From: Deltaproteobacteria bacterium
GTDB lineage: Bacteria > Desulfobacterota > Desulfomonilia > Desulfomonilales > Desulfomonilaceae
Direction of reading: 5' to 3'
DNA: 63,829 nucleotides
Assembly: GCA_021777225.1 (NCBI GenBank)
Contig: JAJYDQ010000012.1
Coordinates: forward strand, 1 to 63,829
Shown here: positions 76 to 5,758 of the stretch, in pieces
Layout: the number at the start of each line of letters is the position of its first letter
Numbering within the stretch: position 1 is the stretch's first letter
Made by a program: the position numbers and the translations under genes
The notes under the pieces: model-generated
Told to the model about the DNA's origin: nothing
Database searches by the model: none
What the model saw: the letters and a program-made list of their open reading frames with translations, nothing else

Positions 76-1365
76 TTACCTCTGATGTTTCGCTCGGAAA
101 GCTTCGATGTCTCGGGTCCATCCACCCTCAACTTCTTCTTCTTTCCAGAAAATGTACGGATTGGATCTAGGCTCGTCGACCATTCTTGGATCAGGATCAA
201 GTTCGCAGACCCTGAGGAATTCCTGGAAGGATTTCCTTTGAATCAATTCACCAAGACGTTCACGGTTCTTACCTTCTTCCATCCACCAATCCCAAACTTT
301 CTCAACAAGATCTTTTGCTTCAGAGAAGGGAGACTCCATCGGCAGAAATGGAACGGTCAGAGTGGACATTTGGGCGCCTTCAAGGATAGGGGCTTTCGCA
401 CCGAAAAGAATAGACGCGCCCGTATCCAGGCCTCTTCTAAGGGCTCGAGGCATTACATTCAAGCAATGCATGCAGCGGACACATTCCTTATTGTTGATCT
501 CGAGCTTGGATCCATCCCATCGCATACAACCTGTTGGGCAAAGGTCAATAACCTCTTTTTGGATGTCAAATTTGCCCCAATCTCTACCCGAATAAGCGCC
601 GGCGTTCGGAGCAAATTCTCCGCCTACATACGCCTTAACTGCGGCTTGGTCTATACGGATGTCGTCTCTCCAAGTCCCGATAAAAGACATGTCGGAACGG
701 GCGATAGACGCCACGCAACCGTTAGGACAACCGTCAAACTTGAATTTGAACTTGTAGGGAAACGCAGGACGATGAAGTTCATCCTGATATTCATGAGTAA
801 GATTATCGCAGGCTTCCTGAGTGTCATAACATGCGAATTCACATCGGGATTGACCCAAACAGCACTCGGGGGTTCTCAGGTTAGACCCGGATCCGCCAAG
901 ATCCTGATGTAATTCATGGGTCATTTCGAAGAATAGAGGCTCAAGATGATCTGTGGTTGTGCCTAAGAATACGATGTCACCAGTGGATCCATGCATGTTG
1001 GTAAGACCGCTGCCATGGTGTTCCCAAAGATCACATAGGCTTCTCAGATATTTTGCGGTATAAAATTTACTTGATGGTTGATTGACCCGGACAGTATGAA
1101 AATGAGCCACACCGGGAAACGTTTTTGGTTGGTCACAATATCGTCCTATGATGCCACCGCCGTATCCAAATACGCCCACGATACCACCATGCTTCCAGTG
1201 AGTGACCTTGTCCATGTAAGATAATTCCATCACCCCTAATAAATCTTCAGGAGCGTCTTTGAGAATGTGTTTTCCGTTTTCCACCTGCTGCTTGATATCA
1301 GATACAAAGCTAGGCCACGGCCCCTTTTCTAATTCATCAAGCATAGGGGTATTGTGTTTTCCCAT
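76..1365 (-). CDS. dsrA: Dissimilatory sulfite reductase alpha subunit
   Basis: This is the alpha subunit of DsrAB, the siroheme/[4Fe-4S] enzyme of the final step of sulfate respiration. At 429 residues it has normal family length. Cluster-ligand cysteines are visible at about 169 and 175 (ECCLGQSRC) and at 213 and 217 (CPNGC). The inserted ferredoxin domain shows CPTGC near 276-280 and CVRCMHC at 295-301. The start is supported by a strong GAGGAGG site just upstream. It is the first gene of a leftward dsrAB unit and faces a divergent dsrN-type operon. All expected cysteines are intact, so the gene looks functional. Confidence 0.97.
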   Translation of the reverse strand: MGKHNTPMLDELEKGPWPSFVSDIKQQVENGKHILKDAPEDLLGVMELSYMDKVTHWKHGGIVGVFGYGGGIIGRYCDQPKTFPGVAHFHTVRVNQPSSKFYTAKYLRSLCDLWEHHGSGLTNMHGSTGDIVFLGTTTDHLEPLFFEMTHELHQDLGGSGSNLRTPECCLGQSRCEFACYDTQEACDNLTHEYQDELHRPAFPYKFKFKFDGCPNGCVASIARSDMSFIGTWRDDIRIDQAAVKAYVGGEFAPNAGAYSGRDWGKFDIQKEVIDLCPTGCMRWDGSKLEINNKECVRCMHCLNVMPRALRRGLDTGASILFGAKAPILEGAQMSTLTVPFLPMESPFSEAKDLVEKVWDWWMEEGKNRERLGELIQRKSFQEFLRVCELDPDPRMVDEPRSNPYIFWKEEEVEGGWTRDIEAFRAKHQR

Positions 1366-1442
1366 TAAAGGTTCCTCCTCTCTACTTAGGTCTTCTGCGA
1401 TTCGAGCGATCGTGATCTATTCAAGTGACCGGAAACAAAAAA

Positions 1443-1501
1443 CGCCGGTATACCCGACTGTTCAAGCTTTTTGAGCTGATTAGAATTTAGTCAAACCGGC
1501 G
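1443..1501 (-). promoter_or_regulatory. Structured 5' leader element of the dsrAB mRNA
   Basis: CGCCGGT (1443-1449) and ACCGGCG (1495-1501) are perfect inverted arms. Inside them, GACT/AGTC and an AGCT/AGCT pair with a short A-rich loop can extend the helix. On the minus strand this would be an imperfect hairpin in the untranslated leader between the candidate dsr promoter and dsrA. No poly-T run follows, so it does not look like a simple terminator. Its function is unknown; it may affect mRNA stability, protein binding or translation. Confidence 0.4.
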
Positions 1502-1550
1502 AATTTATTGAGCATGAATGAAAAAGGCCACCGAATTGAAGATTCTTAAA

Positions 1551-1580
1551 AATCTAATTCAAATGAGTAGCCCAAGTCAA
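1551..1580 (-). promoter_or_regulatory. Candidate sigma70-type promoter for dsrAB
   Basis: On the minus strand TTGACT (1575-1580) is followed after 18 bases by TAGATT (1551-1556). This would give a leader of roughly 180 bases before dsrA that contains the inverted repeat at 1443-1501. The -35 box is good and the -10 box matches four of six positions. It was predicted by eye only. Confidence 0.4.
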
Positions 1581-1614
1581 GAAAAAAATCCCAAGAGTTT
1601 TAGTAAATAACATC

Positions 1615-1662
1615 TCTCTCAATTTATGACATACTTGAATTTTGTGACATTTTGTTGAGAGA
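1615..1662. promoter_or_regulatory. Inverted and direct repeat cluster in the dsr divergent region
   Basis: TCTCTCAA (1615-1622) and TTGAGAGA (1655-1662) form perfect 8-base inverted arms. Between them lie two imperfect tandem 17-base units (1621-1637 and 1638-1654), each built as AATTT..TGACAT..TTG. The cluster sits between the candidate dsrAB promoter and the divergent gene at 1692, a natural place for a regulator controlling one or both. The TTGTGA core recalls half-sites of CRP/FNR- or Rex-type regulators, but there is no full consensus for any of them. Confidence 0.4.
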
Positions 1663-1691
1663 ATACTTTTTCTACTAAGTTAGGAACTCTG

Positions 1692-2879
1692 ATGCGCACC
1701 ATGATGCCGAAATTTCGTTTCCTGTATTCGACCCCAGACGGGAATCCCAAGATACTTGATTCAAAAAGCCTTGAAAGCAATATCCCCGTTACAAGGGACG
1801 AATCGCTTTCATCCGACCCAAAGCGTATAACTTATAGAAACTATATGGAATCTATACAAACTTTTCTGCTGGAGAATTTAAATGAATTTCATGATCTGGT
1901 TCTACAAGATAGTCGGGCCACTGAAGAAATAAAATCGATAGATTTGGTCGCGGAGAAAAGGGGAGCTGACTATTTTCCAGCGTCTGTGAGGGTTAGGACC
2001 GGGAAGGATGAAACCTGGTTTGTTGTAAACGTGGCGCTAACGGATAGAGGCTTATCCAGAATCAGACAGGATTATGATTTACTAAAATACCTTGGATCTC
2101 AAGATGAAAACAAATTTTTGCCTGCAATCTATTTCATTAATACTTTTCAGGACACTAGCGCATCAATGCTTGGCTCTCCCGTCCAAATGTTTTTAGCTGA
2201 ATGGTTTAGGGGATATCACGAATTCCATGTCTCAAGTTCAGCAAAAAACAGCCAATCCGTCTTCAGTTTGTGGGATACTGACAATGGTTATAGCGAATTC
2301 CCTGAGTCTGTTGCACTTCAATTAATCGAGAAAGTTTCTTATATCCTGGGTTACTTTTTCAATCTGGAGACGTTTCAGGAGATATATCCTTGGCATCACG
2401 CCGCGGGTGATTTCATAGCCAGGTTGACCCCTTTCCCCGATGTGAAGTTAATAACAGTCAGACAATACGAAAGTCGGGTTTCGTTTCCCGATGATTCCCA
2501 TGAAAATCTTAACGATGCGTTATTGATATTTTTGGCCAATCTGACCATTCGTGCAAGGATCGACAGAATAGGTGGCACAGGACAATTTGTGTGGCTTAGA
2601 GGGCAATTCGCAAAATCAATATTTATTGGGTTCCTGAAATCTATTATGACCAAAGAGCAGGAGAGGCGAGGGAGCTATGATTTTTTTAAAAAATTTATTA
2701 AAACTCTTTGGACGCGCACAATCGAAGATTGGTCTCAGCTTTTTATTCAAATAATTGAATCTTATGATCAGAGGGCTCCTGACTTTGAAATAATCAAAGA
2801 AAACTTGGTCGATCATATTTTTGATGTATACCAGAACTGTCGAGACCTGATGATAGAAAATAAAATCGATATCAATTAA
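1692..2879 (+). CDS. Uncharacterised dsr-linked protein, possibly phosphotransferase-like
   Basis: I do not recognise a named family. The 395-residue protein has no signal peptide or clear membrane segment. Visible features are a strand/helix stretch at about 108-135 (WFVVNVALTDRG then IRQDYDLLKYLG), a hydrophobic segment with EWFRGYHEF at about 170-178, and a histidine-rich PWHHAAGDF motif at 233-241. That order loosely recalls the kinase/APH fold (nucleotide-binding lobe, hinge, HxxxGD loop), but this is inference only. AGGA at 1682-1685 supports the start. It is the first gene of a rightward operon with two DsrN-like amidases (gap 19 bases) and is divergent from dsrAB, which suggests a role tied to sulfite reductase or its cofactor. 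Confidence 0.75.
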   Translation: MRTMMPKFRFLYSTPDGNPKILDSKSLESNIPVTRDESLSSDPKRITYRNYMESIQTFLLENLNEFHDLVLQDSRATEEIKSIDLVAEKRGADYFPASVRVRTGKDETWFVVNVALTDRGLSRIRQDYDLLKYLGSQDENKFLPAIYFINTFQDTSASMLGSPVQMFLAEWFRGYHEFHVSSSAKNSQSVFSLWDTDNGYSEFPESVALQLIEKVSYILGYFFNLETFQEIYPWHHAAGDFIARLTPFPDVKLITVRQYESRVSFPDDSHENLNDALLIFLANLTIRARIDRIGGTGQFVWLRGQFAKSIFIGFLKSIMTKEQERRGSYDFFKKFIKTLWTRTIEDWSQLFIQIIESYDQRAPDFEIIKENLVDHIFDVYQNCRDLMIENKIDIN

Positions 2880-2898: not shown

Positions 2899-4362
2899 AT
2901 GAACATTCCCCGACTTCTTATAACCGCCCTTAAAGGTGGTTCCGGCAAGACGCTCATAACAGTGGGGCTGACCGCCGCCTTTCGTAAAAGAGGGTTGAGC
3001 CCGAGTGTTTTTAAAAAAGGACCGGATTATATAGATTCAGGTTGGTTGGGTGTAGCCGCAAACCGCCCGTGTTACAATCTGGACCAGTATCTTTTTCCCC
3101 GCGACATTATTCTCCATTCATTTGTACATAGATCTGCAAATTCCCGTATTGCAATAGTTGAAGGCAATAGGGGGCTTTTCGATGGAGTTGACAATCAGGG
3201 CTCGTTTAGCAGCGCGGAACTGTCGAAATGTTTGATGAGTCCGACAATACTGATAATCGATTGTGTGAAAATGACGGGGACGGCGGCAGCTCTTGTGAAA
3301 GGTTGCCTGGAATTTGATCCGGAACTTCATATTGCCGGTATAATTCTAAATAGAATTAAAGGCGCCAGACACGAGCACGTCGTTAGGCAATCTATTCAAA
3401 GAATTAGCGATATACCGGTATTGGGAGTTGTGCCCAGCATGAGGTTAAAGAATTTTCCGCAAAGACATCTTGGGTTGATACCTATTCAAGAACATCCGGC
3501 GTCCATGAGTTTTGTAGAGGAAGCGAGGATGATTGCGGAAAATAGTCTGGATTTGGACGAGATTGAAAAAGTTTCGCAACTCGCTGTGGATCTTCACGTT
3601 GTTTGTAGAGTTGTAGAAAATCCACAAATCGGCGGTTTGAGACAACGTGTGACAATAGGTATCCTACGTGATTCTGCCTTTCAGTTTTACTACCCCGAAA
3701 ACATTGAAGCATTGCGTGTCAGGGGGGCTGAGATCATTGAAATAAACTCCCTTGAATCGAATAACCTACCGAATATAGACGCTCTATATATAGGCGGTGG
3801 ATTTCCGGAGACCAATGCTGAAAGACTCGCCGAAGCCCGGCTTTTTAAAACTTCGGTGAAATCGTTCGTTGAATCAGGTGGCCCTGTTTATGCTGAATGT
3901 GGTGGTTTTATGTTTTTGGCCAGGGAGTTGGTTGTTGACCATAAAAAATTTCCGATGGTCGGTGTTTTTGCCGCCCTGTCCATCCTGCGCACAAGGCCAC
4001 AAGGCTTGGGATATGTTGAACTTAGGGCTCGCAAAGATAACCCGTTTTTCGAAACTGGGCAAACGCTTCGAGGTCATGAATTCCATTATTCCACAATGGT
4101 ATTGGACGGAGCCGGTTCCCATCACCGACCATTTGATATGTTAAGGGGTTATGGGCTAGATGGCGCTCATGACGGCCTTTGTGTAAAGAACGCGCTAGGA
4201 TTATACTCGCATATTCATGCATTAGGGGAGCCCTCGTGGGCTGATGCGCTGATTCGAAAAGCTCAAGAATTTCGAATGAATAAAATACTGCAAAACGAAA
4301 ACCTGAGAAATGCAAAAAATCCCGAGGCTCATGGTTGCCGCCCTGAAGGGCGGAGCTGGTAA
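2899..4362 (+). CDS. dsrN: CobB/CbiA-family amidotransferase, DsrN-like, copy 1
   Basis: Members amidate tetrapyrrole carboxylates with ATP and glutamine: CbiA acts on cobyrinic acid, and DsrN is assigned to siroheme (siroamide) for dissimilatory sulfite reductase. The N-terminal P-loop KGGSGKT is at residues 12-18. The C-terminal class I glutaminase domain carries the nucleophile in YAECGG (Cys334) and the catalytic-type histidines in YSHIH (438/440). The conserved RDSAFQFYYPEN and GGGFPET segments are present. No other cobalamin gene is nearby while dsrAB is, so DsrN is the preferred role. The last 17 codons overlap the start of copy 2, giving this copy an unusual tail ending in RSW. No strong ribosome-binding site was seen. 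Confidence 0.88.
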   Translation: MNIPRLLITALKGGSGKTLITVGLTAAFRKRGLSPSVFKKGPDYIDSGWLGVAANRPCYNLDQYLFPRDIILHSFVHRSANSRIAIVEGNRGLFDGVDNQGSFSSAELSKCLMSPTILIIDCVKMTGTAAALVKGCLEFDPELHIAGIILNRIKGARHEHVVRQSIQRISDIPVLGVVPSMRLKNFPQRHLGLIPIQEHPASMSFVEEARMIAENSLDLDEIEKVSQLAVDLHVVCRVVENPQIGGLRQRVTIGILRDSAFQFYYPENIEALRVRGAEIIEINSLESNNLPNIDALYIGGGFPETNAERLAEARLFKTSVKSFVESGGPVYAECGGFMFLARELVVDHKKFPMVGVFAALSILRTRPQGLGYVELRARKDNPFFETGQTLRGHEFHYSTMVLDGAGSHHRPFDMLRGYGLDGAHDGLCVKNALGLYSHIHALGEPSWADALIRKAQEFRMNKILQNENLRNAKNPEAHGCRPEGRSW

Positions 4363-5758
4363 AACTCTACTCACTATAGGGATAACAGCCGCTCTAACAA
4401 ATCGCGGTTTATCCATAGTTACTTTCAAGAAAGGCCCTGATTACATTGACGCTGGTTGGCTTGGTAAAGCCGCTGGATGTCATTGTCGTAATCTCGATTC
4501 ATACCTTTTTGACGCCGACACTCTTAAGACATCATTTTGCGCTGGAGCGAACAGGTGTGACATTGCCGTAATAGAGGGAAACAGGGGATTGTTTGACGGT
4601 GTCAGCGCCTCTGGCGAATATAGTTCGGCTGAGCTGGCAAAGCTTCTGAATTGTCCCGTCGCTCTCGTTGTTGACGCGTCAAAGATGACGCGTACCGCGG
4701 CCGCTTTGGTTCTCGGATGTAAATTGTTGGATCCTAGTGTTTCTATCAAAGCCGTAATCTTGAACAGGGTGGCGGGTTCCAGGCATGAGAAGACGCTTCG
4801 CGAGTCCATAGAAGACCATTGTTCCATACCAGTGATTGGATGTGTCAACAAGCTTTCGCTTGAAAATTTCCCCCAAAGGCACCTTGGCCTTTTGCCACTG
4901 TTCGAGCACGCTGGGGCTAACGAATTGATAGTTCAGGCCGCGCAGGTAGTTGAGCGCTCAATCGATCTGGATCGACTAGTAAGAATAGCAAATACTGCGG
5001 ACCCTTTTAATTGCGATTATTCAGTCAATTTGGCGCTAAAACGTGACCCATCTCACGTGGACCTAAAAATTGGTGTACTGAGAGATTCGGCTTTCCAGTT
5101 TTATTACCCGGAAAACTTGTCTGCTTTATCTGCGACCGGAGCAAAATTGGTCGAAATTTCAGCGCTTGAATCCAAACCTATTCCAGAGTTGGACGCTCTT
5201 TATATCGGTGGTGGTTTTCCTGAGACACATGCCGAATGTTTAGCAAAAAACACGGTTTTCAAGAATTCTTTATTTGAAGCGGTTGAATCCGGTCTCCCAG
5301 TCTATGCGGAATGTGGTGGCTTGATGTATTTGGCGAGAGAACTGACTATAGATAATACTACCTACCCGATGGTTGGAGTTTTTGATGTTGGAACTGTCCT
5401 CGAAAGGATACCCCAAGGCCACGGTTACATGACTGTGGAGGTGGTGGTTCACAACCCATTCTTCCCGGTTGGGTCCGTTTTCAAAGGACACGAGTTTCAC
5501 TATTCATATATACAATCTGAAAACGTCAGGCGAAGTTCGTATGCGTTCAAGGTAATTCGAGGGCACGGAATCAATGGCGCCTATGATGGCATTTTCCGAA
5601 ACAATGCGTTAGGGACATATCTACATCTGCACGCATTAGGCGCGCAAGAATGGGCCCAACATATATTAAATCGGGCGGTTCAATATCATAGCGCCCAAAA
5701 GTCAGATTCGACCGTAAGACAATGGATCCCGGGGCCTAAAAGCAATCATCAAATATGA
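4310..5758 (+). CDS. dsrN: CobB/CbiA-family amidotransferase, DsrN-like, copy 2
   Basis: This is a tandem paralogue of the preceding gene with the same architecture: P-loop KGGAGKT at residues 13-19, glutaminase Cys335 in YAECGG, and YLHLH histidines at 439/441. All catalytic residues are retained in both copies, so neither looks like a decayed duplicate. The start at 4310 gives the same offset to the P-loop as in copy 1; it lies 53 bases inside copy 1 in another reading frame and has only weak ribosome-binding sequence, so translational coupling is likely. The substrate is probably siroheme or another tetrapyrrole acid. The two copies may amidate different side chains, or one may act on a cobalamin precursor. 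The stop overlaps the next gene by four bases. Confidence 0.88.
   Translation: MQKIPRLMVAALKGGAGKTLLTIGITAALTNRGLSIVTFKKGPDYIDAGWLGKAAGCHCRNLDSYLFDADTLKTSFCAGANRCDIAVIEGNRGLFDGVSASGEYSSAELAKLLNCPVALVVDASKMTRTAAALVLGCKLLDPSVSIKAVILNRVAGSRHEKTLRESIEDHCSIPVIGCVNKLSLENFPQRHLGLLPLFEHAGANELIVQAAQVVERSIDLDRLVRIANTADPFNCDYSVNLALKRDPSHVDLKIGVLRDSAFQFYYPENLSALSATGAKLVEISALESKPIPELDALYIGGGFPETHAECLAKNTVFKNSLFEAVESGLPVYAECGGLMYLARELTIDNTTYPMVGVFDVGTVLERIPQGHGYMTVEVVVHNPFFPVGSVFKGHEFHYSYIQSENVRRSSYAFKVIRGHGINGAYDGIFRNNALGTYLHLHALGAQEWAQHILNRAVQYHSAQKSDSTVRQWIPGPKSNHQI

Follow-up and report, generated by a model that had tools for sequence, protein, structure and literature searches.

Dissimilatory sulfite reductase (DSR) is the hallmark enzyme of sulfate respiration; to our knowledge, the assembly and control of this siroheme/Fe-S enzyme are poorly known. 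In the window (the whole 63,829-nucleotide stretch of DNA analyzed here), an operon that diverges from dsrA is headed by a gene, here called U395, to which a preliminary description of the sequence could assign no function. What kind of protein does this gene encode, and is it tied to sulfite reduction or only located beside it?

The gene facing dsrA

U395 is an exact open reading frame of 395 codons, and both motifs that had been singled out as conserved-looking occur in its translation, EWFRGYHEF at residues 170-178 and PWHHAAGDF at residues 233-241. The gene and its neighbors are as follows (window coordinates).

76..1365, minus strand: dsrA, divergent from U395 (TIGR02064, 606 bits vs. a cut-off of 393)
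1366..1691, no strand: divergent intergenic region, with the dsrA leader on the minus strand strongly conserved (84-98% identity within the genus)
1692..2879, plus strand: U395, ATG to TAA, 395 aa, member of an unnamed family; predicted fold protein-kinase-like, APH/choline kinase type (ORF, homologues, AF2 model, fold matches)
2899..4362, plus strand: first CobB/CbiA-like glutamine amidotransferase (DsrN-like), 19 bp past U395 (NF002204, 408 bits vs. a cut-off of 254)
4310..5758, plus strand: second CobB/CbiA-like glutamine amidotransferase (DsrN-like) (NF002204, 426 bits; CfbB model, 430 bits, below its cut-off of 560)

Downstream of U395 come the two CobB/CbiA-type amidases, then a DinG-like helicase and a Mla-type transporter; the ‘DsrN’ label of both amidases is assigned by context. 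The gene had been placed opposite dsrAB and ahead of two DsrN-like genes. The amidases do lie downstream and U395 does diverge from dsrA, across a spacer of 326 bp, but dsrA is the only one of the pair in the window; dsrB is cut off because the contig begins 75 bp past the dsrA end. In sister genomes, dsrB comes after dsrA. The tandem DsrN/CobB-like genes (2899-5758) overlap by 53 bp, and most of the window's family carries two copies, with a single copy at one locus (L026).

The full U395 frame is kept in homologues from other species, dN/dS relative to the nearest species is 0.16-0.19, and 19 columns are invariant among 79 U395 sequences with a median identity of ~35%. These results establish U395 as a real gene whose protein is under selection. 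On the other side of the spacer, the dsrA leader (1366-1600, minus strand) is 84-98% identical within the genus, vs. 52-85% for the divergently encoded U395 protein. A terminator-like hairpin plus U-run (1444-1458) lies upstream of the dsrA ribosome site, a candidate for an attenuator of dsrAB or for a leader RNA; the leader has no Rfam match, and covariation or conserved structure is unsupported on the family-wide alignment.

The protein was described as unrecognized, and so it stayed in sequence searches. Neither U395 nor any of its 79 homologues has a significant match in Pfam, no NCBIfam model matches the window's U395, no PDB chain is matched by U395 profiles, and no relative was found on viral contigs. 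The APH Pfam family (PF01636) matches 0 of the 79 sequences, and the APH and U395 profiles share a weak local alignment in the alpha-C/beta4 region only (probability 3%), with the catalytic loop not placed on APH. Apparent U395 ‘fusions’ of 586-610 aa in two genomes (G222, G279) were rejected as over-extended open frames in GC-rich DNA.

The dsr gene lists of four openly accessible papers (PMC5812927, PMC6018796, PMC10504309, PMC13047784) cover dsrC, D, N, T, L and MKJOP but not the U395 family; elsewhere, an earlier passing mention as a ‘hypothetical protein’ is possible. U395 resembles dsrC, dsrD, dsrN, dsrT and dsrL in clustering with dsrAB in reductive-type sulfite reducers, but constitutes a separate family.

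Fold and cleft residues of U395

The AF2 model of U395, for which 79 public-genome homologues were used, reaches a pLDDT of 90.4 and a pTM of 0.91. Kinases top the Foldseek list obtained with this model, and the best match in the VIA structural aligner is N-acetylhexosamine 1-kinase (Z 13.8, rmsd 4.1, 253 residues), followed in order by corramycin phosphotransferase, APH(2''), choline kinase, Bud32 and RIO2. Among 1000 PDB chains, 312 reach Z ≥8; in the calibration of the aligner, chance-level best matches lie near Z 7-8.

The protein-kinase-like (PKL) fold consists of two lobes, with strands beta1-3, helix alpha-C, beta4-5, a hinge, alpha-E, beta6 and beta7 with the catalytic loop between them, beta8 and a helical C-lobe. 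In U395 the elements are ordered as in the APH/choline-kinase branch. Strands beta1-3 (82-115) come first, then alpha-C (118-137), beta4-5 and the hinge EWFRG; after an inserted hairpin follow alpha-E (205-222), the catalytic loop, flanked by beta6 and beta7, and beta8. With this order in a model of pLDDT 90 and with a best Z of 13.8, the predicted fold is clearly protein-kinase-like, of the APH/choline-kinase type. The order of motifs had been said to recall a phosphotransferase or kinase weakly, with structure prediction and a fold search as the check; the hunch was right, and the confident model makes the resemblance clear rather than weak.

NahK (4ocu), APH(2'')-IVa and choline kinase alpha, members of the APH/choline kinase PKL superfamily, share with U395 the two-lobe fold and the order of strands and helices; the U395 hinge resembles E-x-x-x-G, and there is an APH-like insert between hinge and alpha-E. 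U395 differs from the superfamily in its low identity (7-12%, with no Pfam match), in having His, Asp and Thr/Ala/Ser at the positions of the catalytic Asp, the Asn and the DFG Asp, and in carrying its Lys in the glycine loop rather than in beta3.

Residue equivalences were derived from strand order, spacing and secondary structure of the model, with HRD Asp166, Asn171 at +5, DFG Asp184 and beta3 Lys72 as the kinase reference scheme (PMC4718504). All elements below are on the plus strand.

1935..2036: N-lobe strands beta1-beta3, residues 82-115; glycine-loop-like EKxGxxYHPA with Lys89, and Asn113 at the expected place of the beta3 Lys (secondary structure, conservation)
2043..2102: alpha-C-like helix, residues 118-137; position 127 always acidic (weak profile alignment to APH alpha-C)
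2388..2414: PWHHAAGDF, residues 233-241, the putative counterpart of the catalytic loop, flanked by beta6 and beta7; His235 falls on the catalytic Asp and Asp240 on the Asn (+5 spacing as in kinases)
2448..2468: LITVRQY, residues 253-259, the putative counterpart of beta8/DFG; Arg257 invariant, and Thr/Ala/Ser where the metal-binding Asp is expected (strand 250-253)

Residues H235, D240, R257, K89, Y94, E177, H179 and D291 are identical in 79/79 sequences, N113 is kept in 76/79, position 127 of alpha-C is E in 66 and D in 13 (acidic in all 79), and position 255, the DFG Asp equivalent in the register adopted, is T in 72, A in 6 and S in one. The canonical kinase Asp (HRD/HGD) and the Asn at +5 are absent, with His235 and Asp240 at the corresponding assigned positions in 79/79; the metal-binding Asp after beta8 (DFG/IDW) is likewise absent at the assigned position 255; and as regards the pairing of a beta3 Lys with an alpha-C acid, U395 has Asn113 in beta3 but also Lys89, which never varies, in the glycine loop, and the acidic position 127. 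Because His235, Asp240, Thr/Ala/Ser255 and Asn113 occupy its assigned places, the canonical phosphotransfer set appears to be missing family-wide, with a different cleft set fixed in its stead, and we infer from the model that ordinary kinase activity has been lost. An alternative register, with Asp240 as the catalytic Asp (HGD-like AGDF), was set aside because beta7 begins right after this residue, and both the helix turn and the +5 spacing fit His235/Asp240.

A relocated lysine, with the beta3 lysine absent, is described for WNK-type kinases and pseudokinases (PMC4718504). U395 is similar in that it also lacks the beta3 lysine and has an invariant Lys elsewhere in the N-lobe; WNK, however, retains HRD and DFG, and U395 has neither.

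The pseudokinases SelO and SidJ are known enzymes that modify substrates. By analogy, U395 may be an enzyme with new chemistry (e.g., AMP, glutamyl or phosphate transfer via His235/Asp240/Lys89) that modifies DsrAB, DsrC or siroheme. A complete invariant set of polar cleft residues in 79 distant sequences exceeds the conservation usual for a scaffold, and in the window's family U395 shares its operon with two amidases of the tetrapyrrole-amidase type; both observations favor such an enzyme. However, U395 is without the metal-binding DFG Asp equivalent, sequence searches found no homology to SelO or SidJ, and DsrN occurs in many dsr operons where the U395 arrangement differs; we consider new chemistry on these substrates a tentative possibility.

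Co-occurrence with dsrA and partner genes

In the 84,980 species genomes scanned, U395 has 346 relatives, the best 80 of which lie in Desulfobacterota and Nitrospirota records. Among 296 Desulfobacterota genomes (each ≥90% complete), U395 is present in 47, dsrA in 147 and both in 46 (Fisher, 4e-15, a statistic that ignores phylogeny); among 148 Nitrospirota genomes, dsrA is present in 72 and U395 in 4, all with dsrA. Such a phylogenetic profile had been proposed as a check on the tie to dsrAB, which would have been contradicted by homologues widespread in genomes without dsrAB. No such spread was found: dsrA is present in 50/51 U395 genomes over the two phyla (46/47 and 4/4), and in Desulfobacterota the two genes are mostly ≤5 kb apart, in line with the proposed tie. 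The sole U395 genome without dsrA (G128) is nearly complete and also has no convincing dsrB. Its U395 homologue (L129:8486-9637) adjoins genes resembling a molybdopterin oxidoreductase, a ThiF/MoeB-like protein and a small MoaD/ThiS-like protein.

The distance between U395 and dsrA is ≤5 kb in 30 of the 46 Desulfobacterota genomes having both and in 15 families, and there are at least three arrangements across lineages. U395 may be divergent upstream of dsrA, as in the window's family; codirectional upstream (TPR > U395 > dsrA > dsrB > cbiA-like); or convergent downstream (HEAT > U395 facing CxxC < TPR < dsrB < dsrA). Recurrence of the linkage in rearranged forms argues for a functional tie between U395 and dsrA. 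Some copies of U395, in families f55, f71, f77 and f89, are located apart from both dsrA and the TPR gene.

These data bear on whether U395 could be a common small-molecule kinase (APH/NahK type) that has nothing to do with DSR and hitch-hikes in dsr clusters. Its closest folds are small-molecule kinases and some copies are unlinked to dsrA, as such a passenger would allow. But at the assigned positions none of the 79 sequences retains the canonical Asp, the Asn or the DFG Asp, and co-occurrence with dsrA in 50/51 genomes, together with linkage in several arrangements, ill suits a passenger; for these reasons we disfavor this explanation and hold it to be very improbable.

U395 is found in ~1/3 of dsrA-bearing Desulfobacterota (46/147) and in 4/72 such Nitrospirota, a distribution unlike that of core DSR machinery; with ~2/3 of the Desulfobacterota dsrA genomes lacking it, U395, which had been suggested as a candidate for a step in siroheme modification, DSR assembly or its regulation, cannot perform a step that DSR needs universally. 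On a DsrA tree (72 sequences), U395 presence takes 12 changes (at least 9 of them forced), vs. 24 with shuffled labels, and is clustered yet patchy. The gene co-occurs with dsrA and clusters with dsrAB in unrelated lineages, as expected of a dsr-linked accessory family; U395 is accessory, repeatedly gained or lost, and tracks DsrA lineages. Nitrospirota DsrA sequences nest beside those of Desulfobacterota, as if dsr and the U395 module had moved together. U395 evolves much faster than DsrA (median identity 35% vs. 73%), with a moderate correlation of distances (r 0.58).

A gene for a small TPR protein lies ≤3 kb from U395 in 61/80 loci. The 19 loci without one are those of the window's family (13) and others with <330 nt of upstream sequence; outside the window's family, the TPR gene is near U395 at every locus with enough upstream sequence (61 loci). 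The two genes overlap by 4 bp at one locus (L070) and are paired also where dsrAB is located elsewhere. The link of U395 to DsrN is strong in the window's family only; elsewhere, the constant partners are the TPR protein and dsrA. The window's family is thus atypical, with two DsrN-like genes instead of a dsr-linked TPR gene and, in some sisters, a CxxC gene past dsrB. The genome of the window itself yielded no CxxC partner at E <1e-20, and a TPR match there (on C136) is probably a generic TPR protein, its neighbors being atp and housekeeping genes. DVU2210, a YcaO-TPR protein from the literature, is different from the TPR partner of U395.

U395-bearing dsr clusters also encode two further proteins: one combines an N-terminal zinc-ribbon domain with HEAT repeats, and the other is a CxxCxxCC protein of PF03692. 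Along with TPR, both genes adjoin dsrAB in several lineages without U395 too, which makes U395 a variable member of a wider DSR-linked set. Four syntenic conserved proteins of unknown function have been noted near acidobacterial dsr genes (PMC6018796). Full-length HEAT/zinc-ribbon proteins occur in 57/296 Desulfobacterota genomes, 56/57 with dsrA (two genome lists compared).

The HEAT/zinc-ribbon gene lies beside dsrAB at L134:4249-5343, L137:4404-6146 and other loci. Its N-terminal zinc-ribbon domain (CPFC...C.CGA...D.TGHN.G.A..EAL) is new; some genomes add a C-terminal TPR stretch and others have the zinc-ribbon domain alone. The HEAT half matches the NCBIfam DVU0298 family (NF045662), to which U395 itself is unrelated. 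HEAT-only DVU0298-like relatives (~240 aa; e.g., G000:C145:45780-46463) occur in the majority of the phylum's dsrA genomes and in few genomes besides, and are possibly another sulfate-reducer marker. The CxxCxxCC protein (L134:6388-7104, L102:11085-11729) has eight fixed cysteines, and Foldseek matched its model (pLDDT 83) to no solved fold in the PDB.

TPR and HEAT proteins are adaptors, and pseudokinases often act as allosteric sensors or scaffolds (PMC4718504), so U395 could sense a nucleotide or the redox state and, through these partners, regulate dsr expression or signaling, without acting on the DsrAB protein. In the window's family it also faces dsrA across one common intergenic region. 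This region is, however, confined to one arrangement, and a Pfam search of U395 found no DNA-binding or signaling domain; we judge a sensor to be unlikely.

Proposed role in sulfite reduction

Since U395 almost never occurs without dsrA and has a kinase fold without the usual catalytic residues, it probably serves sulfite reduction as a dedicated helper that has yet to be described. Our preferred reading, in which belief and doubt are evenly balanced, is that U395 is a dedicated DsrAB accessory factor with a non-canonical kinase fold that assembles or tunes DsrAB. Its active site would have shed the ordinary phosphoryl-transfer residues and kept the fixed set of Lys89, acidic 127, His235, Asp240, Arg257 and Asp291. 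The protein would most likely work with the small TPR adaptor and, in many lineages, also with the HEAT/zinc-ribbon and CxxCxxCC proteins. By binding DsrAB or the apo-subunits, it may aid assembly or tuning of the enzyme while its kinase cleft holds a nucleotide or cofactor. Against an accessory factor of DsrAB we count the ~2/3 of Desulfobacterota dsrA genomes without U395, the unlinked copies, G128, the fast divergence with r 0.58, and the APH profile mismatch.

A more elaborate proposal, which we find rather doubtful, is that U395 forms the catalytic or cofactor-binding center of a DsrAB-dedicated complex (kinase-fold, TPR, HEAT/zinc-ribbon and metal-binding CxxCxxCC proteins), carrying out a new reaction in its rewired cleft on DsrAB or siroheme during maturation in ~1/3 of the dsrA-bearing Desulfobacterota.

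U395 and its three linked partner families are concrete gene targets for the question of how DSR is assembled and controlled. U395 would also join the few kinase-fold proteins known to have departed from ordinary kinase chemistry.
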